DNA of 64,000 nucleotides from Acidimicrobiales bacterium (GTDB lineage: Bacteria > Actinomycetota > Acidimicrobiia > Acidimicrobiales > SKKL01): NCBI GenBank assembly GCA_034521975.1, contig JAXHLR010000006.1, forward strand, positions 434,001 through 498,000, read 5' to 3'. Each line of letters begins with the position of its first letter. The first letter of the stretch is position 1. This document shows, piece after piece, positions 54,426 through 63,935 of this stretch. The notes beneath the pieces were generated by a model. It saw nothing but the letters and a program-made list of their open reading frames with translations, was not told the DNA's origin and ran no database searches. Made by a program: the position numbers and the translations under genes.

Positions 54426-55535
54426 TCAGCACCCCGTCCAGCGACGCTCGACCCTGGGGCCGACGCCGCACACGACCTCGTAGCCGATCGTGTCGAGCCG
54501 GCCCGCCACCGCCTCGGCGGTGATGCGCTCAGGGCCCTGGCTCCCGATGAGGACGGCCTCGTCACCCGCCGCCACCTCGACGTCGCCACAGTCGACCATG
54601 AGCTGATCCATGGTGATGGTGCCCACGATCGGACACCGATGGCCACCGAGCAGCACCTCGCCGCCCAGACGATGGAGGTCGCGCCGGACACCGTCGGCGT
54701 AGCCGATGGCGACGGTGGCGACCACGGTCGGGACGTCGAAGCGATGACGCAGCCCGTAGGACAGGGCGTCGCCCGCCGGCACGACCTTGACCTGGGTGAC
54801 CCGGGCCGACAGCGACATCGCGGGATGCAACGGTGCGTGGCCGGCCAGCTCGGGCGACGGCGAGATGCCGTAGATGGCGATGCCGCACCGAACCAGGTCG
54901 AACCGCGACGCGGGATGGGCGATGGCGCCGGCCGAGTTGGCGGCATGGCGCAACCGGGGTGAGATCCCCGCCGCTTCCAGCTGCTCGAGCGCACCCTGGT
55001 ACCGATCGAGCTGCACGGCGGTGAAGTCGTGGTCGGGCTCGTCGGCCACGGCCAGGTGGGTCCAGAGCGCCTCGAGTTCGAGGCCGGGGGCATCGATCAC
55101 ACGCTGGGCGAGCGGGACCACCGCACTCGGATCGACGCCGACGCGGTGCATGCCGGTGTCGACCTTCAGGTGGACACCGACCGGGCGGGCCTGCGACGCG
55201 GCCGCGGCTGCGGCCCGGACGCCCGGCTCGCTGAACAGGGTCACCTGCAGCCCCAGGTCGGCGGCGTGGGAGAGCAGGTTCGGGTCGGGTTCGGACAGGA
55301 CCAGGATGGGGACCTCGAGCCCACCGGCTCGCAGCGCTTCCCCCTCCCCGACGTGGGCCACCGCCAACCAGGTGGCACCGGCATCGACCGCGGCGCGCGC
55401 GACGGGCACCGCGCCGTGGCCGTAGCCGTCGGCCTTGACCACCGCGCACACCTCGGCGGGCGCGACCATCTCGACGAGGGCCGCCACGTTGCCCTTGACG
55501 GCGTCGAGATCGATCGTTGCCCAGGCGCTGGCCAT
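54426..55535 (-). CDS. alr: Alanine racemase
   Basis: The 369-residue PLP enzyme makes D-alanine for peptidoglycan. CAVVKADGYGHGAV (Lys near residue 34) is the PLP site, TMDQLMVDCGD contains residues near the catalytic Tyr-bearing domain, and LKVDTGMHRVG and HAANSAGA are the usual barrel motifs. It starts 2 bp after the CBS gene stop and runs into the P1 peptidase gene. Confidence 0.95.
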   Translation of the reverse strand: MASAWATIDLDAVKGNVAALVEMVAPAEVCAVVKADGYGHGAVPVARAAVDAGATWLAVAHVGEGEALRAGGLEVPILVLSEPDPNLLSHAADLGLQVTLFSEPGVRAAAAAASQARPVGVHLKVDTGMHRVGVDPSAVVPLAQRVIDAPGLELEALWTHLAVADEPDHDFTAVQLDRYQGALEQLEAAGISPRLRHAANSAGAIAHPASRFDLVRCGIAIYGISPSPELAGHAPLHPAMSLSARVTQVKVVPAGDALSYGLRHRFDVPTVVATVAIGYADGVRRDLHRLGGEVLLGGHRCPIVGTITMDQLMVDCGDVEVAAGDEAVLIGSQGPERITAEAVAGRLDTIGYEVVCGVGPRVERRWTGC

Positions 55536-56000: not shown

Positions 56001-57362
56001 TCACTCCTGGATCAGTCGGTCGAACACGGCGGGCAGGCGGTCGGGGAGGTCGCCGGCCACCAGCCCGTGAGCAGAGCCTAGGGCGCCGGCCAGGCCGTGC
56101 AGGTGCGCACCGACCGCGGCGGCGGTGAACGGCTCGACGCCCGAGGCCATGAGCGCGCCGATCACCCCGGCGAGCACGTCGCCGGTGCCGGCGGTGGCCA
56201 GCCGGGCGTCGCCGCTGGCGCTGGCCAGCACCTCACCGTCGGGATGGGCCACGAGGGTCACGGGACCCTTGAGCGCCACGATGGCACCGGTGGCCGTGGC
56301 GAGGGAGCGGGCCGACTCGAAGCGGTCGGCACCGGGACGCCCGCCGGCGAGGCGTGCGAACTCGCCGTCGTGAGGGGTGAGCACGGTGGCGGCGGTGCGG
56401 CGTGTGAGCACCGACGCCGGATCGTTGCCGAGCGCGGCGAGCCCGTCCCCGTCGACCAGGACCGGAACCGGTGCCTCGGCGACGACCCGGGCCGCCTCGG
56501 CGAGGGTGACCTCGCTGCGCCCGAGTCCGGGGCCGACGACCAGCGCGGAGAAGCGTTCGAGATCGTCGAGCACCCGAACCGCCCAGCCGCGGTCGGCGAG
56601 CTCGATGCCGACCGCCTCGACCGGCCGACCGGGGTCGTCGCCGACACCAGGCGAGGAGAGTCGCACGTAGCCGGCACCGGTGCGCTGTGCTCCGCGAGCG
56701 GTGAGGTGTGCGGCCCCGGTCATACCCGGCGAGCCGGCGATGACCCACACGGCGTGCTTCCACTTGTGGGCGGTGGGTGCCCGCGGCGGAAGGACCCGGG
56801 CGACATCGTCGTCGGTGAGCAACCAGGCCCGGGCCGAGCTGGTGTCGAGCCCGATGTCGGCGACCTCGGTGGGCCCCGCCCACGATCGGCCCGGTTCCAG
56901 CACCAGTCCCGGCTTGAGCGCGGCGAAGGTGATCGTCCGGTCGGCGACGAGCACCCCGTCGCCGACCTCGCCGGTGAGCCCGTCGAGCCCAGAGGGGAGG
57001 TCGACCGCCAGGACGGGGATCTCCGGGTCGACCGCGGGGGCGACGAAGCCCGGTCGGGCCCCGGTGCCGAGCACCGCATCGACGACCAGGTCGACACCGT
57101 CGAGGTGGTCGGGAAGCTCGTCCAGGTCGTGGACCTGCACCCGCACTCCCCGCCGCTCCAGGCGTCGGGCAGCGTCGCGGCCGTCGGCGCCGTTGTTGCC
57201 CGGACCGGCCAGCACCGCCACCCGACGGCCGTACCCCCCGCCGAGCATGGCCAGCGCGACCGTTGCGGTGGCCGCACCCGCCCGACCGATCAGGACCTCG
57301 ACCGGCTCGGGTGCGGCGGCGTCGACCTCGCCCATCTCGGCAGGCGTGACGATGGGGATCAT
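56001..57362 (-). CDS. nnrD: Bifunctional NAD(P)H-hydrate epimerase / ADP-dependent dehydratase
   Basis: The 453-residue protein repairs hydrated NADH and NADPH. The N-terminal YjeF epimerase domain (about 1-200) has VLAGPGNNGADGRDAARRL and VDLVVDAVLGTG; the C-terminal ribokinase-like dehydratase domain (about 215-445) has ALVVGPGLGRS, VLTPHDGEFARLAGG and ATAGTGDVLAGVIGAL. Both activities look intact (nnrE and nnrD fused). The start overlaps the cbiX stop (ATGA). Confidence 0.94.
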   Translation of the reverse strand: MIPIVTPAEMGEVDAAAPEPVEVLIGRAGAATATVALAMLGGGYGRRVAVLAGPGNNGADGRDAARRLERRGVRVQVHDLDELPDHLDGVDLVVDAVLGTGARPGFVAPAVDPEIPVLAVDLPSGLDGLTGEVGDGVLVADRTITFAALKPGLVLEPGRSWAGPTEVADIGLDTSSARAWLLTDDDVARVLPPRAPTAHKWKHAVWVIAGSPGMTGAAHLTARGAQRTGAGYVRLSSPGVGDDPGRPVEAVGIELADRGWAVRVLDDLERFSALVVGPGLGRSEVTLAEAARVVAEAPVPVLVDGDGLAALGNDPASVLTRRTAATVLTPHDGEFARLAGGRPGADRFESARSLATATGAIVALKGPVTLVAHPDGEVLASASGDARLATAGTGDVLAGVIGALMASGVEPFTAAAVGAHLHGLAGALGSAHGLVAGDLPDRLPAVFDRLIQE

Positions 57363-57764: not shown

Positions 57765-58133
57765 TCACAGCGCGATCGCGGTGGCCTGGGCCATCAGCTC
57801 GGTGTGGGACAGCGACAACCGCCACTCGTGGACACCGCGATCGGAGGCCAGCTCGTGGGCCCGACCGTGCAGCTGCAGCGCCGGCTGCCCGGATTCCTCG
57901 TCGCGTGTGACCTCGATGCTGCGGAGCTCCATCGCCCCCAGCCCGACACCGAGGGCTTTCATCACCGCCTCCTTGGCTGCGAACCGGACGGCGAGCCGCG
58001 GGGCGGGATCCTGCTGGCGGTGGGCGTAGGCACGCTCGGCCTCGGTGAACAGCCGGTCGACCATGGAGGGGGTGCGCGCGATCACCTCGCGGAACCGCGG
58101 CACCTCGACCAGGTCGATCCCGAGGCCGATCAC
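57765..58133 (-). CDS. acpS: Holo-[acyl-carrier-protein] synthase
   Basis: The 122-residue phosphopantetheinyl transferase activates acyl-carrier protein. IGLGIDLVEVPRFREVI (Mg2+-binding Asp at 7) and AVRFAAKEAVMKALGVGLG (Glu-Ala-x-x-Lys helix) are the family signatures, and LSLSHTELMAQATAIAL ends it. Starts at GTG with GAGGAGC upstream, 10 bp after the GlmS-like gene. Confidence 0.95.
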   Translation of the reverse strand: MIGLGIDLVEVPRFREVIARTPSMVDRLFTEAERAYAHRQQDPAPRLAVRFAAKEAVMKALGVGLGAMELRSIEVTRDEESGQPALQLHGRAHELASDRGVHEWRLSLSHTELMAQATAIAL

Positions 58134-58143
58134 TCGCAGCTCC

Positions 58144-61100
58144 TCATCGGTCTGAACGCCACCTGTCGGCCAGCGTCTGGATCGGTGCGGTGAGCAGGTC
58201 GAGCACCGACACCTCGGCGAGCACGTCGTCGCGGAACACGGGCTCGGTCTCCATCACGGCGTTGCGCAGGGCCGGATAGCGCCCCCGGTAGGCCGACATC
58301 ACCGTACGGGCGCTGGTGGCCGGCAGGTGCTCGGCCAACCGGACGTGCAACAGGGTCACGCCCGTGGCCACGTTTCCCTTCACCTCCGGCACGAGGACCG
58401 TGATCCGTCCGTCGGACCGCCCGAGGTTGACGAACACCTCACGCTCGCGCGCGACCTGGTGCTTGGTGCCGCGCAGCACCGGATCGCGCTCGGTGCGCGA
58501 GGGGATGTCGGCCGCGATGCCGCCCTTGTCGAGCACCGTCGCGGTGACGAGATCATCGTCGCTGTCGAGGCGACCCTCGATCGCGTACCGCGTGTACCCG
58601 GCGACCTCGACGACGGCCGGATCGAGCCCCGCGAGAGTTCGGAGGGTCTTGTAGCTGAGCCGGTCGCGGCCGGTGCCGGCGTCGAGGACCGCCCGCACGA
58701 GCGGCACCTCGAGCAGCGACTCGTCGGAGCGGGAGATGCCGACGGTGACGGTCTTGGCCTGGTGCTTGATGGCATCGACCGGTCGGGTGAGCTCCTCGAT
58801 CGCCCGGGTCAGCGCGTCGGTCAGGTCCTCGATCACCACCCCTGGAGCCCCGACCTTGCCGTGCTCGAGCTCGAAGGCTTCCAGGGGCACCATGCCGAGC
58901 GCGAAGCGGAGCAGGCTCGACAGCCGCACCGCCGTGCTGGATTCGAGGTGACCGTTGTAGTCGCCGGCGCGGAGGCCGTCGAAGTACTGCTGGGCGTTGA
59001 CGCCGATCGCGGAGCGGAGCTCGGTGAGCACCTCCTCGGCGTCTCGTCCGGGCGCCACCGAAGCCTCGATGCTGGCCCGGATCTCGCGCAGCGGTAGCGC
59101 CTGGGCGTCGATCGCCAGCGCGGCCTCGTATCCGAAGAGGTGACCGGCCATGGCCGACAACACGAACCCGAGCTCCGGGTGCACCGCGGGGACCGGGATG
59201 ACCTCGTAGGCCGCGCTGTAGCGAGCCTCGCCCTCGGACGCGATGACGATCGGGGTTGCCTTGTGCGCCCGATAGATCGACACCTCCTTGGCGACGTCGT
59301 TCGCGGTCGACCCGCTGAGACCGGCGGCGCACACCAGCACCATCGGTTCGGCCGACAGGTCGATGTGCTTCTTGTCCTCGGTGGCGTCCCAGGAGATCGA
59401 CTTGTAGCAGAGCTCGGACAGCTTGATCCGCAGCTCGCGGGCGGCGATGAGGTTGTTGCCGTTGCCGACGATGGCCCACGAGCGCCGACTCGGTGCGAAG
59501 CGTCGGGCGGCGCGGGCGATGATGTCGCGCTGGGCCAGCGTGGCCTCCATGGCCGTCGGCAGGTCACGGAGCGCGGACAGCAGCTCCTGTCGGGACCGGC
59601 CGTCGGAGCCGAACCCCGCCGCGTCGACGATGGCGAAGGCCAGGAGGAACCCGGCGGCGACCTGCGCGTAGAAGGCCTTGGTGGAGGCGACGCTCATCTC
59701 GATGTCGCGTCCGTCGGAGGTGTACAGGACGCCGTCGGACTTGTCGGTGAGATCGCTGCCACGGCGGTTGACGATCGAGATCACCCGCGCCCCACGCCCC
59801 CGCACCAGGTCGACGGTTCGATTGGTGTCGGTGGTGGTGCCCGACTGGCTGATCGCCACGACGAGGGTGTCGGACATGTCGGGTCGCAGCCCGAACCCCG
59901 ACAGCTCGGTGGCGGGCAGGGCCTCGATGCGCAACGACGAGTCCGAGGCGAGCGAACCAAGCGCGGTGGCCATGCTCTGACCGGCGACTGCTGCTGTGCC
60001 CTGGCCGATCACCACCACCCGGCTGATCCGACCCGCGGCCAGATCGTCGCGTACCGATTGGGGGACGCTGGACGGGCCCAGGTGGACGCCGAGGCGCCCA
60101 TCCTCTCCCACCAGGAGCTTGCCCCGGAGCGTGGTCCGGAACGAGGTGGGTGCTTCGGTGAGCTCCTTGAGCAGGAAGTGCGGGTGATCGCCACGGTCGA
60201 TGTCGCGCGTGGTGATGGACGGGCGGGCCAGATCCTCGGCACCCACCGGCAAGGGGGTGCCGTCGTATGCCCACCGCTGGATCGCCTCGAGGGTGCCGGC
60301 GCCGCCACGATCGAGCACGACGATCTGGCCGCGGGTCGCCACCGCGTTGTCGAGATCGGCAGGCGTGTCGCCGTCGAGGCGCAGGTAGCGGTCGGCGTGC
60401 TCGACCACCCCGTAGGGCTCGCTGGCCACCACGTAGGCGTCGTCGGTCAACCCGACATAGAGGGCCTGTCCACTTCCGCGCAGGGCAAGGCACAACCGGT
60501 CGGTGTCGGTGGTGGTGCTCGCGGCGACCGCGACCGAACCGTCGAGCGCCGCCACGGTCGACCGGAAGGCGTCCCCGAGCTCGGCCCCCGAGCGCAGGTG
60601 ACGAGCCAGCAGGACGGGGATGACCTTGGCGTCGGTGGTGATCTCGGGGGCGATGTGGAGCCCTTCGTCGGCCTTGAGGTCCGCGTAGTTGTCGACATCG
60701 CCGTTGAGGACCGCGGTGGCGAGGTCGGCCCCCTGGTCCCCGATCTCGAGCGAGTCGAGCGGGTGGGCGTTCGACTGGGAGATGATCCCCACGCTGGCCC
60801 AGCGAGTGTGACCCAGGACCAGCACCTCGGACTCGTCGGAGGTCACCGCCAGGCGCAGCAGCTCGTCGGAGCGCAGGGCATCGCGCAGCTCCCGGGTGTT
60901 GTCGCCCAGCTGGCCGATCTCGGCCGCGGCCTTGTAGACGAAGGTCACCGTGTCGGGTCCGACGCGGACCGCGCCCGAGCGGAACAGCTCGTCGGAGTCC
61001 CGGGCTCCGAGCAGTGACCGCACGGCGGGATCGTCGAAATCGAGACCGTGGCCGGCAACCACGACCTGGAGACCGGCCGAGTCACGGCCCCGCACCTCGA

Positions 61101-61590
61101 GACGGTCGAGCGCGGACAACGCCTGCTGGATCGCCCAATAGGCACGAGTGGCTCCCATCGAGGACACCGAGGCCGCCAGATCGAGGATCTCGACCGCCGA
61201 CCGGACGCGGTCGCGGCGAAGCGACCACGCCGCGTCCTTGACCCGAACCACTGCCTGGTTGAACGCCTCGAGCCGGTCACCAGCAACGATCTCACCGGCG
61301 TCGAGCCGGGTGTCGAGGGTGGCGAAGGCCTCGAGCATCTGGTCGAGGGTGTCGGTCAGCGATGCCCGCAGCCCGGGATCGGAGAGCAGCAAGCGGGCCC
61401 CGACCGGTCCGCGCAGGAGACGATCGGCATCCTCGAGGTCCTCGGCGGCAACGAGGAGATCATCGAGCATCGAGGTGTCGGCTGCTCGTGCAAGCGCGGC
61501 GGCGGCGCGCGCTACCGGAGCTGCCACCAGACCGGCCTCGGGTACCGCTCGCTGCGGTCTGCGCCCGAGCACGGCGATGATTCCACACAT
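58144..61590 (-). CDS. Oversized GlmS-like protein: split Ntn-glutaminase domain, two SIS domains, C-terminal extension
   Basis: The 1148-residue protein resembles glucosamine-6-phosphate synthase (about 610 residues) with two additions. The start MCGIIAVLGRR gives the catalytic Cys2, but about 140 mainly helical residues follow before the strand ALDRLEVRGRDSAGLQV (near 167) that normally sits at residue 25. Then come GHTRWASVGIISQSNAHPLDS (about 262) and LNGDVDNYADLK. SIS domains lie at about 465-640 (SQSGTTTDTN, VASTKAFYAQVA) and 690-835 (GNGNNLIAARELRIKLSELCY, EDKKHIDLSAEP). A further 280-300 residues of mixed alpha/beta sequence end it. Next to glmM, it probably supplies glucosamine 6-phosphate, but a regulatory variant is possible. 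AGGAGATC precedes the ATG. Confidence 0.85.
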   Translation of the reverse strand: MCGIIAVLGRRPQRAVPEAGLVAAPVARAAAALARAADTSMLDDLLVAAEDLEDADRLLRGPVGARLLLSDPGLRASLTDTLDQMLEAFATLDTRLDAGEIVAGDRLEAFNQAVVRVKDAAWSLRRDRVRSAVEILDLAASVSSMGATRAYWAIQQALSALDRLEVRGRDSAGLQVVVAGHGLDFDDPAVRSLLGARDSDELFRSGAVRVGPDTVTFVYKAAAEIGQLGDNTRELRDALRSDELLRLAVTSDESEVLVLGHTRWASVGIISQSNAHPLDSLEIGDQGADLATAVLNGDVDNYADLKADEGLHIAPEITTDAKVIPVLLARHLRSGAELGDAFRSTVAALDGSVAVAASTTTDTDRLCLALRGSGQALYVGLTDDAYVVASEPYGVVEHADRYLRLDGDTPADLDNAVATRGQIVVLDRGGAGTLEAIQRWAYDGTPLPVGAEDLARPSITTRDIDRGDHPHFLLKELTEAPTSFRTTLRGKLLVGEDGRLGVHLGPSSVPQSVRDDLAAGRISRVVVIGQGTAAVAGQSMATALGSLASDSSLRIEALPATELSGFGLRPDMSDTLVVAISQSGTTTDTNRTVDLVRGRGARVISIVNRRGSDLTDKSDGVLYTSDGRDIEMSVASTKAFYAQVAAGFLLAFAIVDAAGFGSDGRSRQELLSALRDLPTAMEATLAQRDIIARAARRFAPSRRSWAIVGNGNNLIAARELRIKLSELCYKSISWDATEDKKHIDLSAEPMVLVCAAGLSGSTANDVAKEVSIYRAHKATPIVIASEGEARYSAAYEVIPVPAVHPELGFVLSAMAGHLFGYEAALAIDAQALPLREIRASIEASVAPGRDAEEVLTELRSAIGVNAQQYFDGLRAGDYNGHLESSTAVRLSSLLRFALGMVPLEAFELEHGKVGAPGVVIEDLTDALTRAIEELTRPVDAIKHQAKTVTVGISRSDESLLEVPLVRAVLDAGTGRDRLSYKTLRTLAGLDPAVVEVAGYTRYAIEGRLDSDDDLVTATVLDKGGIAADIPSRTERDPVLRGTKHQVAREREVFVNLGRSDGRITVLVPEVKGNVATGVTLLHVRLAEHLPATSARTVMSAYRGRYPALRNAVMETEPVFRDDVLAEVSVLDLLTAPIQTLADRWRSDR

Positions 61591-61632: not shown

Positions 61633-63003
61633 CTAGGTCCCGGAGACCGCCAGCTTGCTCGCAGCCTGCTCGACGGATGCCACCAGCTCCGCCGCCGCGG
61701 CGCTCGCTGCCGATTCGTCCTCGGCCTCGACCATCACCCGCACCAGCGGTTCGGTCCCACTGGGGCGCACGAGCACGCGCCCCCGCTCGCCCAGGTCACG
61801 CTCGACCCTGTCGACCACATCGGACATCTCGCCGATCACCGCCGCGGGCCGGGTGGCGACCCGAACGTTCTGCAACACCTGGGGGAAGCGGGTCATCGCC
61901 GTGGCGGCAAGCTCGCTGAGCGGCCGTCCGGCCCGAGAGACCAGATCGAGCAACTGGACGGAGGTGAGCAGACCGTCACCGGTGCTGGCCAGATCCCGGA
62001 AGATGATGTGACCCGATTGCTCCCCTCCCAACTGCCAGCCGCCGCGCTCGAGTGCTTCGAGGACGTAGCGGTCGCCGACCTGGGTCTCGACCACCCCGAT
62101 GCCGCGCTCGGCCATGGCCAGGCGGAACCCGAGGTTGGTCATCACGGTGACGACCACGGTGTCGTCGGCGAGCACACCTCGTTGGTGACGATCGATGGCG
62201 CACAGGGCGATGATCTGGTCTCCGTCGACGAGGGCGCCCGCGTCGTCGACGGCCAGGACACGGTCGGCGTCGCCGTCGAAGGCAAGCCCGAGGTCGGCGC
62301 CGTGGGCGACCACCGCGGCCTGGAGATCCTCGGGATGGGTGGAGCCGCAATCGTGGTTGATGTTGCGACCATCGGGTCGATCGTGGAGGACCTCGACGGT
62401 GGCTCCGAGGCGTCGGAGCACCGGCGGTGCGTGCTCGGAGGCTGCACCGTTCGCGCAGTCGACGACGACGTTGATGCCCTCGAGCCGGCGCCCCTCGATC
62501 GAGGCGTCGAGCGAATCGGCCCACCGACCGACCGCGCCGACCGCCGGCCGGATCGACCCCACCTTGGTCCCGACGGGAGGGGAAGCGTCAGCGGGCTCAC
62601 CGAGCAGGATACGGTCGAGCTCGGTCTCGAGACGTTCCTCGTCACCCGCCCCGAGCTTGATTCCCCCGGCGCCGAAGAGCTTGACCCCATTGTCGGCATA
62701 GGGGTTGTGGGAGGCGGAGATGACCGCTCCGGGTACCCCGTCGTTGGCACAGACCCATGCCACCGCCGGCGTGGGAACCACCCCGAGCACCTCGACGTCG
62801 ACCCCCTCGGCGGCCAAGCCAGCCGCCAGCGAGGCCTCGATCAACGGGCCGGACCGGCGGGTGTCACGACCCACGACCACCGTGCCGACACGAGCGGCAT
62901 CGAGGACGCGCGCCGCTGCCCGCCCGAAGGCGAGCACGAGTTCGGGAGTGAGCTCGGTGTTGGCCACACCGCGCACTCCGTCGGTTCCGAAGCGAAGCGT
63001 CAT
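61633..63003 (-). CDS. glmM: Phosphoglucosamine mutase
   Basis: The 456-residue enzyme converts glucosamine 6-phosphate to the 1-phosphate for UDP-GlcNAc synthesis. MTLRFGTDGVRGVANTELTPE is the N-terminus, GAVISASHNPYADNG has the phosphorylated Ser near residue 104, LAFDGDADRVLAVD is the Mg2+ loop near 245, GGEQSGHIIF the sugar loop, and LVRPSGTEPLVRVMVE the phosphate-binding loop. It lies between rpsI and the GlmS-like gene, the order common in actinobacteria. Confidence 0.97.
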   Translation of the reverse strand: MTLRFGTDGVRGVANTELTPELVLAFGRAAARVLDAARVGTVVVGRDTRRSGPLIEASLAAGLAAEGVDVEVLGVVPTPAVAWVCANDGVPGAVISASHNPYADNGVKLFGAGGIKLGAGDEERLETELDRILLGEPADASPPVGTKVGSIRPAVGAVGRWADSLDASIEGRRLEGINVVVDCANGAASEHAPPVLRRLGATVEVLHDRPDGRNINHDCGSTHPEDLQAAVVAHGADLGLAFDGDADRVLAVDDAGALVDGDQIIALCAIDRHQRGVLADDTVVVTVMTNLGFRLAMAERGIGVVETQVGDRYVLEALERGGWQLGGEQSGHIIFRDLASTGDGLLTSVQLLDLVSRAGRPLSELAATAMTRFPQVLQNVRVATRPAAVIGEMSDVVDRVERDLGERGRVLVRPSGTEPLVRVMVEAEDESAASAAAAELVASVEQAASKLAVSGT

Positions 63004-63067: not shown

Positions 63068-63460
63068 TCAGCGCTTGGAGTACTGCGGAGCCTTGCGCGA
63101 CTTCTTGAGGCCGTACTTCTTGGATTCCTTCTTGCGAGCGTCGCGAGTGAGGAACCCGGCCTTCTTGAGCAGGGGGCGAAGCTCGTCGTCGAGCTCGACC
63201 AGTGCCCGGGAGATCCCCATGCGCATCGCACCCGCCTGGCCCGACGGGCCACCGCCGTGGAGCGTGGCGTCGACGTCGTAGACCTCGGCGGTCTCGGTCA
63301 GCTTCAACGGCTCGGTGAAGATCATGCGGTGGGTCTCGGTCGGGAAGTACTCCTCGACCGGATGACCGTTGGCGGTGATGACACCGGTGCCGGGACGCAG
63401 GCGCACACGTGCGACGGCCTGCTTGCGGCGACCGGTGGTCTGGACGAGGGGTGCTGGCAT
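63068..63460 (-). CDS. rpsI: 30S ribosomal protein S9
   Basis: The 130-residue protein has [19 protein letters not shown] at the N-terminus, [20 protein letters not shown] in the middle and the invariant basic tail [25 protein letters not shown]-type ending [12 protein letters not shown], whose last Arg reaches the P-site tRNA. The start ATG 63460 has GAGGTCC upstream and follows rplM by 25 bp. Confidence 0.97.
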
Positions 63461-63485: not shown

Positions 63486-63935
63486 TCAGCTGGCGCGGCG
63501 TGCGCCGTCGATGACGAGGGGCTGAGGGTTCTGGGCGGCGTGGGGATGGGTCGGTCCGGCGTAGACCTTGAGCTTCTTGAGCATCTGGCGGCCGAGGCGG
63601 GTCTTGGGCAACATGCCGCGGACGGTGCGACGAACCGCGTCCTCGGGCTTGCGCTTGAGCGCTTCGCCATAGCTGACCGACTTGATCCCGCCCGGGTAGC
63701 CGCTGTGGCGCCAGACCTGCTTGCGGTCGGCCTTGTTGGAGGTGAGGACGACCTTGTCGGCGTTGACGATGATGACGTGGTCGCCGGTGTCGACGTGCGG
63801 GGCGAAGGTCGGCTTGTGCTTGCCGCGCAGGATGCGGGCGACCTCGGTGGCGAGGCGGCCGAGCACCAGGCCCTCGGCGTCGACGACGTGCCAGGTGCGC
63901 TCGATGTCGGTTGGGCGGGGGGTGAACGTAGGCAC
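63486..63935 (-). CDS. rplM: 50S ribosomal protein L13
   Basis: The 149-residue protein has [45 protein letters not shown] and [31 protein letters not shown], the standard L13 signatures. It starts at GTG with GGACAG upstream and is cotranscribed with rpsI, as in nearly all bacteria. The promoter should lie at or beyond the right edge of the window. Confidence 0.97.

Follow-up and report, generated by a model that had tools for sequence, protein, structure and literature searches.

A 64,000-nucleotide stretch of the genome of an Acidimicrobiales bacterium (assembly GCA_034521975.1, contig JAXHLR010000006.1, positions 434,001 to 498,000 of the forward strand; hereafter the window) encodes a protein of 1148 amino acids that begins MCGII and resembles GlmS, an enzyme whose product is the first cell-wall aminosugar and whose control has long been studied. 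Its open reading frame, which starts with ATG, runs over window positions 58144..61590 on the minus strand, the strand of every window feature given below, and is real, as a preliminary description made from the sequence had it. The locus raises the question of whether a protein some 540 residues larger than ordinary GlmS can still serve as such, and of what the added segments do. The reading that we prefer, at a probability of roughly 0.7, is that this is the sole working GlmS of its genome, in which the lid of the active site is tethered between extra modules.

The long form is a variant of a known enzyme, GlmS, and the familiar parts can be followed along the chain. Residues 1–10 (61561..61590) comprise the Met, the Cys2 nucleophile and the first strand of the N-terminal nucleophile (Ntn) glutaminase domain, giving the Met-Cys-Gly start with an N-terminal Cys nucleophile that is proper to GlmS; this Cys is invariant in 64/64 long rows (the 56 aligned and eight others), and the fold fits that of 1xff. 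Insertion 1, residues 11–150 (61141..61560), is mostly missing from ordinary GlmS and is helical, with five helices in the AlphaFold2 model (H19-39, H42-59, H61-70, H72-97 and H104-139). The remaining glutaminase domain, residues 151–459 (60214..61140; 1xff_A aligns over model residues 2–459), carries its motifs at residues 163–173 and 261–277, just where the preliminary description had located the rest of the signature, and encloses insertion 2, a group of smaller extra segments at about residues 187–251 (60838..61032), of which 187–219 and 237–251 are absent from 21 ordinary rows. The double-SIS isomerase core follows at residues 465–828 (59107..60198), with matches to 1moq, 2v4m and 7dnr. 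The two SIS domains claimed earlier are not both visible to Pfam, which recognises one (523–651), but the double-SIS isomerase is borne out by the structural matches and by the NCBIfam glmS model (TIGR01135), which matches residues 245–826 (E 4.6e-66).

Beyond the isomerase core, model and alignment place insertion 3, a helical segment of about 105 amino acids at residues 829–933 (58792..59106), at the junction between the isomerase and the GlmS C-tail. The C-tail itself, residues 934–951 (58738..58791), ends RPVDAIKHQAKTVTVG (936–951) and is internal; it reads HQAKTVTVG in 64/64 long rows, and ordinary copies terminate in PRNLAKTVTVE or PRNLAKSVTVE. After it comes a C-terminal extension of about 197 amino acids, residues 952–1148 (58147..58737), predicted to form a PAS/GAF-like sheet with helices. 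The comparison set consisted of 21 ordinary GlmS rows drawn from the order and from the class (19 distinct genomes), relative to which the alignment marks segments 8–138, 144–152, 187–219, 237–251, 409–421, 838–944 and 951–1148 as extra; the automatic alignment overdraws the third main gap, which takes in part of the C-tail. Structural alignment gives the same boundary, since residue 608, the last of 1jxa and of 1moq, falls at model residues 951 and 952, respectively. The C-terminal excess is thus made up of insertion 829–933, the internal C-tail and a true extension, and the single large extension first proposed, while real as an excess, is split in two. In ordinary GlmS the C-tail is the C-terminus of the protein, a free end that shuts over the sugar site and forms part of the wall of the ammonia channel; here it lies at 934–951 of 1148. 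This internal C-tail, overlooked in the preliminary description, is a more telling anomaly than the insertion behind Cys2.

That insertion is nonetheless as described, about 140 residues placed after the Cys2 strand and unaligned to ordinary GlmS, and it is present in 56/56 aligned full-length long rows, the window protein included, with a length of 117–166 amino acids (median 140). The same rows dispose of the idea that the gene is an artefact of assembly or of gene fusion: 56 full-length relatives in a single frame, 50–69% identical to the window protein, refute it, and we regard its chances as negligible.

The catalytic residues are kept throughout. Positions are given in E. coli GlmS numbering. 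In the first set of 64 long rows, C1, R26, R73, W74, H86, N98, G99, D123, Q348, S349, S401, E481, K485, E488, H504, A602, K603 and T606 are invariant, and S347 (63/64), T302 and T352 (62/64 each) nearly so; K603 corresponds to K946 of the long form. A second set, made up of the window protein, 14 rows belonging to the phylum of genome G716 and three to that of G719 (18 rows in all, 4/18 genes shared with the first set), keeps C1, R26, R73, W74, H86, N98, G99, D123, T302, Q348, S349, T352, S401, E481, K485, E488, H504 and K603 in 18/18, with S347 replaced by T in seven. Both the glutaminase residues (R73, W74, H86, N98, G99, D123) and the isomerase residues (K485, E488, H504, K603) are therefore complete. 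We take the last four to be the equivalents of the catalytic residues named for human GFAT-1, and Y25 and Y28 presumably correspond, by our own numbering, to its Tyr32 and Tyr35. The GFAT-1 study describes the catalytic residues as conserved all the way from E. coli to human and reports that Tyr32 and Tyr35 hold the C-loop (PMC7000685).

The predicted structure points the same way. From the 56 aligned long forms, AlphaFold2 produced a model of the whole protein with a mean predicted local distance difference test score (pLDDT) of 87.9 and a predicted template modelling score of 0.78, in which the Ntn glutaminase and double-SIS folds of GlmS are both present. For the glutaminase domain, model residues 2–459 superpose on E. 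coli 1xff with 235/238 residues aligned at 1.5 Å (Z 31.6); the predicted Ntn fold thus closes around insertion 1 and places Cys2 within it, the outcome on which the preliminary description had staked its case. The isomerase part fits 1moq at 2.5 Å over 355/366 residues (Z 34.6). The whole model covers 597/608 residues of 1jxa, but at 6.1 Å, so the domains are probably placed differently. An insertion so close to Cys2, occupying the loop after the nucleophile strand, could in principle disable or gate the glutaminase, leaving the enzyme to depend on free ammonia or a partner protein. The intact predicted fold and the retention of C1, R73, W74, H86, N98, G99 and D123 in every row of the first set both argue against such a loss, which we consider quite improbable. 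Nothing came to light in favour of the earlier suggestion of a glutaminase that depends on another factor, in a neighbour scan confined to the window's own genes.

In the genomes surveyed, the long form largely stands in for the ordinary enzyme rather than accompanying it. The genome is 98.71% complete, and a search with the glmS model yielded no second glmS in it, the sole other match spanning model positions 1–221, the glutaminase part only. Neither a normal second copy nor a loss of the fructose-6-phosphate residues, which are largely kept, is therefore seen, and the suggestion that this is the only GlmS stands. Two queries, the long protein and the glmS model, were run against 148 genomes of the order, the long form being counted at a best match of E <1e-100 (the next genome gave 6e-43). 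The architecture proved widespread: 94/148 genomes have the long form, some as fragments at contig ends, 51/148 have ordinary glmS over the cut-off, none is on both lists and three are on neither. Family f30 is mixed, with ordinary copies in G032 and G116 and long ones in G081 and G146, and at class level 234/247 genomes gave some match, with both architectures seen.

A wider search used profile A2, built from the C-terminal 320 residues of the long form. It matched 32/396 genomes of the phylum, or 31 after removal of the spurious G619, nine of them outside the class, and beyond the phylum 13/297 genomes in that of G719 and 37/246 in that of G716. By their record titles, which can mislead, G719 (locus L098) belongs to Acidobacteriota and G716 (L075) to Planctomycetota. 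The weak matches in G619 and G037:C13 were set aside as chance, the sequences reading as methylmalonyl-CoA-mutase-like. No ordinary glmS over the cut-off was found in 24/25 long-form genomes searched among the 50 positives of these two other phyla, and eight of eight control genomes lacking the long form have one. The 25th, G1052, holds an ordinary-size copy (L284; G1052:C184, 161–2008, minus strand) beside its long form. Its sequence begins with MSGIV and has EPRNLERFFPE close to the end, so that Ser replaces the nucleophile Cys and the C-tail lysine is missing; the copy is probably a pseudo-enzyme or an altered enzyme, to judge by these residues.

Long and ordinary genes also share a locus. 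The order rplM-rpsI-glmM-glmS is found at 13/13 ordinary-type loci examined (eight of the 51 in the order, five of the class), as at the long locus. glmM lies upstream in 69/80 long-form loci on named genome contigs; of the other 11, seven start less than 800 bases from a contig end, and L075, L085, L098 and L101 are without the neighbourhood. Near-exclusive occurrence, shared locus, conserved catalytic set and intact predicted fold together make it very likely that the protein is a working GlmS.

Several findings weigh against the reading of a sole, working GlmS with a tethered lid. The NCBIfam match reaches 223.6 bits against a curated cut-off of 418.05. The only stretch of at least three residues with pLDDT below 50 is 945–954, in the C-tail itself. 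Genomes G038, G057 and G104 appear in neither list of the survey, G104 having ordinary fragments, and G003 carries, besides the long form, two pieces of an ordinary glmS that score 402 and 242 bits, short of the cut-off; this could reflect assembly error, contamination or decay. In addition, pocket positions are altered throughout the long rows of both sets (T76S, S303A and Y28R), K487 is nearly always S or A and G505-P506 nearly always I/V-D/N, and H77 becomes V, I or M in the first set and V, Q, S or N in the second. N600H, L601Q and E608G are likewise fixed in all long rows, and Y25 is nearly always V, I or T. Taken at face value, S303A, G505-P506 to I-D, K487S and Y28R, fixed or nearly so in long rows and absent from the 21 ordinary ones, could mean that a different sugar phosphate is aminated or that the site is used differently. 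We think this unlikely: there is no variation in the catalytic lysines, glutamate and histidine or at Q348 and S349 of the phosphate site, and the gene is the only GlmS candidate, lies beside glmM and replaces ordinary glmS. In our reading, the changes may reflect a concerted reshaping of the surroundings of the C-tail and not decay.

Architecture, residue conservation, sole occurrence, locus and the single branch are computed results; catalysis and use of the channel we infer, and on the preferred reading of a working GlmS with a tethered lid the reaction would run as follows. Glutamine would be hydrolysed by Cys2, and the ammonia would reach the isomerase site through a channel that W264 gates; there K946, E726, K723 and H742 would convert fructose-6-phosphate to glucosamine-6-phosphate, on which the adjacent GlmM acts. 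The C-tail would be held at both ends, by the helical insertion 829–933 on one side and by the PAS/GAF-like domain 952–1148 on the other. As the C-tail both covers the sugar site as a lid and forms part of the channel lining, fixing both its ends could couple the extra domains to catalysis, and these modules would then control assembly and lid closure, probably through binding of a metabolite by the C-terminal domain. Their retention across phyla suggests that the extra modules probably do something, and it is plausible that the insertion behind Cys2 acts as an allosteric or partner-binding module, as proposed at the outset.

Modelled alone, the last 320 residues give a pLDDT of 93.8. The best fold match of the extension is residues 174–360 of the large glutamate dehydrogenase (GDH) of M. 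smegmatis (7jsr_A; Z 9.1, 4.2 Å over 158 residues), aligned to model residues 135–320, that is, protein residues 963–1148. The next matches, at Z 6.5–7.8, are mostly GAF and PAS-type chains on the sheet part and helical bundles on insertion 3, the latter generic (NiSOD, FAT, Z about 7) and uninformative. In the GDH concerned, L-GDH180, the matching N-terminal region includes a PAS-type module, and its published description proposes that ACT-like and PAS-type modules next to the catalytic core may serve as metabolic sensors (PMC8175468). It is another enzyme, however, and its sequence relation to the extension is not significant or at best suggestive. The GAF domains of Lcd1 (5w10), PtsP (3ci6/3trc) and fRMsr (3rfb) resemble the sheet region (Z 7.2–7.8 over 80–95 residues), but show no sequence match to it, and these Z values are within the range of chance likeness.

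Control by a ligand of the C-terminal domain is therefore a conjecture from fold, to which we give somewhat less than an even chance, and several results count against it. Foldseek found no match to the last 320 residues in the PDB at E 0.001; the Z of 9.1 is barely above the level of models without relatives; and the extension profile scored P 0.41 against ten large GDHs and P 0.14 against 38, neither significant. When the extension was compared by HHalign with the N-terminal part alone of 32 large GDHs, the score was 20.9 (P 0.02) against 16.1 for the reversed segment, and 1/100 column-shuffled controls scored as high. Homology to the GDH module is suggestive at best on these alignments, and we treat it as a lead only. 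The C-terminal 320 residues, run as a profile against the PDB sequences, matched none of them even at E 10. The modules might instead be purely structural, making a larger or more stable oligomer of a functional GlmS and holding the C-tail with no ligand control. Insertion 1 has the lowest conservation of the protein (mean column identity of 0.36–0.51 per 20-residue block over residues 21–120), as a packing surface would, and Pfam recognises no known sensor domain, a scan of the C-terminal 320 residues of 34 members giving nothing consistent (DUF7124 in 5/34, best E 0.0011). The extension is better conserved (0.56–0.75 per block over 961–1140), is predicted to be PAS/GAF-like and has GAF and PAS-type chains among the folds nearest to it, which fits a structural role less well; we hold a purely structural role possible but somewhat doubtful.

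Compared with ordinary GlmS and GFAT (E. coli 1jxa, 1xff and 1moq; human GFAT-1 6r4e), the long form has the same domain order, Ntn glutaminase, double-SIS isomerase, catalytic residues, C-tail with its Schiff-base lysine and gene neighbourhood. It differs in its greater size, mostly in three blocks, in the internal position of the C-tail, in its separate branch and in the substitutions T76S, H77V/I, S303A, K487S, G505-P506 to I-D, Y28R and E608G. NagB-II/AgaS-type SIS enzymes share the SIS fold and give weak NCBIfam matches; they are not known to have a glutaminase domain. We file the long form as working like GlmS and as a sister branch of it, and not as a member of the TIGR01135 equivalog, as it falls short of the cut-off and its C-tail is not C-terminal. 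Annotation by that cut-off could call long-form genomes glmS-less: 0/13 genomes behind named long-form contigs passed it. No description of a long GlmS was found in the literature searched, which mostly left out subscription journals and preprints. For human GFAT-1, tags at the N- or C-terminus are reported to interfere with activity (PMC7000685). With about 200 residues behind the C-tail and about 140 behind the nucleophile strand of what appears to be a sole GlmS, the long form thus lends itself as a natural test case for the control of lid closure and of ammonia channelling.

A quick tree of 600 core columns, with 35 long and 19 ordinary proteins (L284, lacking the Cys motif, was excluded), separates the two kinds by one branch with a support of 100 in the Shimodaira–Hasegawa-like approximate likelihood ratio test (SH-aLRT). 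The window protein falls in a 22-member set (support 99) in which Acidimicrobiia are mixed with rows of the phyla of G716 and G719; of the 13 long rows outside this set, all but L190 come from the phylum of G716, and the deep branching on the long side is resolved in part. The mixed set suggests that the long form may have moved between phyla, replacing the ordinary gene in place.

Among 22 long-form loci checked, nine have no start codon immediately before the catalytic Cys: L190 (G785) and, in the phylum of G716 (titled Planctomycetota), L262, L263, L264, L265, L268, L269, L274 and L275. An upstream pattern, GT(I/L)V(F/L).P, then seven residues, then CG(I/L), is common to five of them, and L269 and L190 have a looser form of it; L268, L269 and L274 may start one or two codons upstream. 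The missing start codon and the shared pattern suggest that an N-terminal segment may need to be cut off to free the nucleophile in these loci, as happens in PurF. It is conceivable, though we think it rather doubtful, that the long forms make up a distinct large-subunit class of GlmS in Acidimicrobiia and at least two other phyla, in which a sensor-like C-terminal domain pulls on a tethered lid and which, in part of the Planctomycetota, needs cutting of a precursor. If so, entry into the aminosugar pathway would be controlled inside the enzyme; other bacteria use regulators outside GlmS.

Around the long gene, the synteny scan, which queried the window's own genes only, gives the following arrangement. 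glmM (phosphoglucosamine mutase; TIGR01455, 512 bits, over the cut-off) lies directly upstream at 61633..63003. Its listed frame extends to 63252, the model match begins at residue 88 of that frame, and the start is likely Met84. Beyond it are homologues of rpsI (63068..63457, start estimated) and rplM (63486..63935), both queries in the scan, and downstream are homologues of acpS (57765..58133, directly adjacent), an nnr-type NAD(P)HX repair gene (56001..57362) and the alanine racemase gene alr (54426..55535), all five of them conserved neighbours.

A few further observations concern the same genomes. The best glmU match in the window's genome (G000:C5:222361-223419) covers positions 2–345 of 452 in a 379-codon frame and scores 359 bits against a cut-off of 367, so its C-terminal end may be missing or broken; 5/14 control genomes also miss this cut-off. 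A large glutamate dehydrogenase, the kind of enzyme with the PAS-type module to which the fold of the extension comes closest, is encoded in this genome in an open frame of 1708 codons (G000:C6:46864-48345). In G038 (1.8 Mb, 98% complete) neither the long form nor an ordinary glmS over the cut-off was found, and its genus-mates G087 and G120 carry the long form. The ordinary copy of G003 (L153; G003:C29, 1353–3042) can be read only across a frameshift. Four records titled Acidobacteria (L035, L058, L059 and L083) have an Acidimicrobiia-type neighbourhood and place in the tree. Lastly, two metagenome-assembled genome records titled Bifidobacterium breve (L092 and L105) carry an Acidimicrobiia-type long glmS, in L092 with the typical neighbours, and are probably misnamed.

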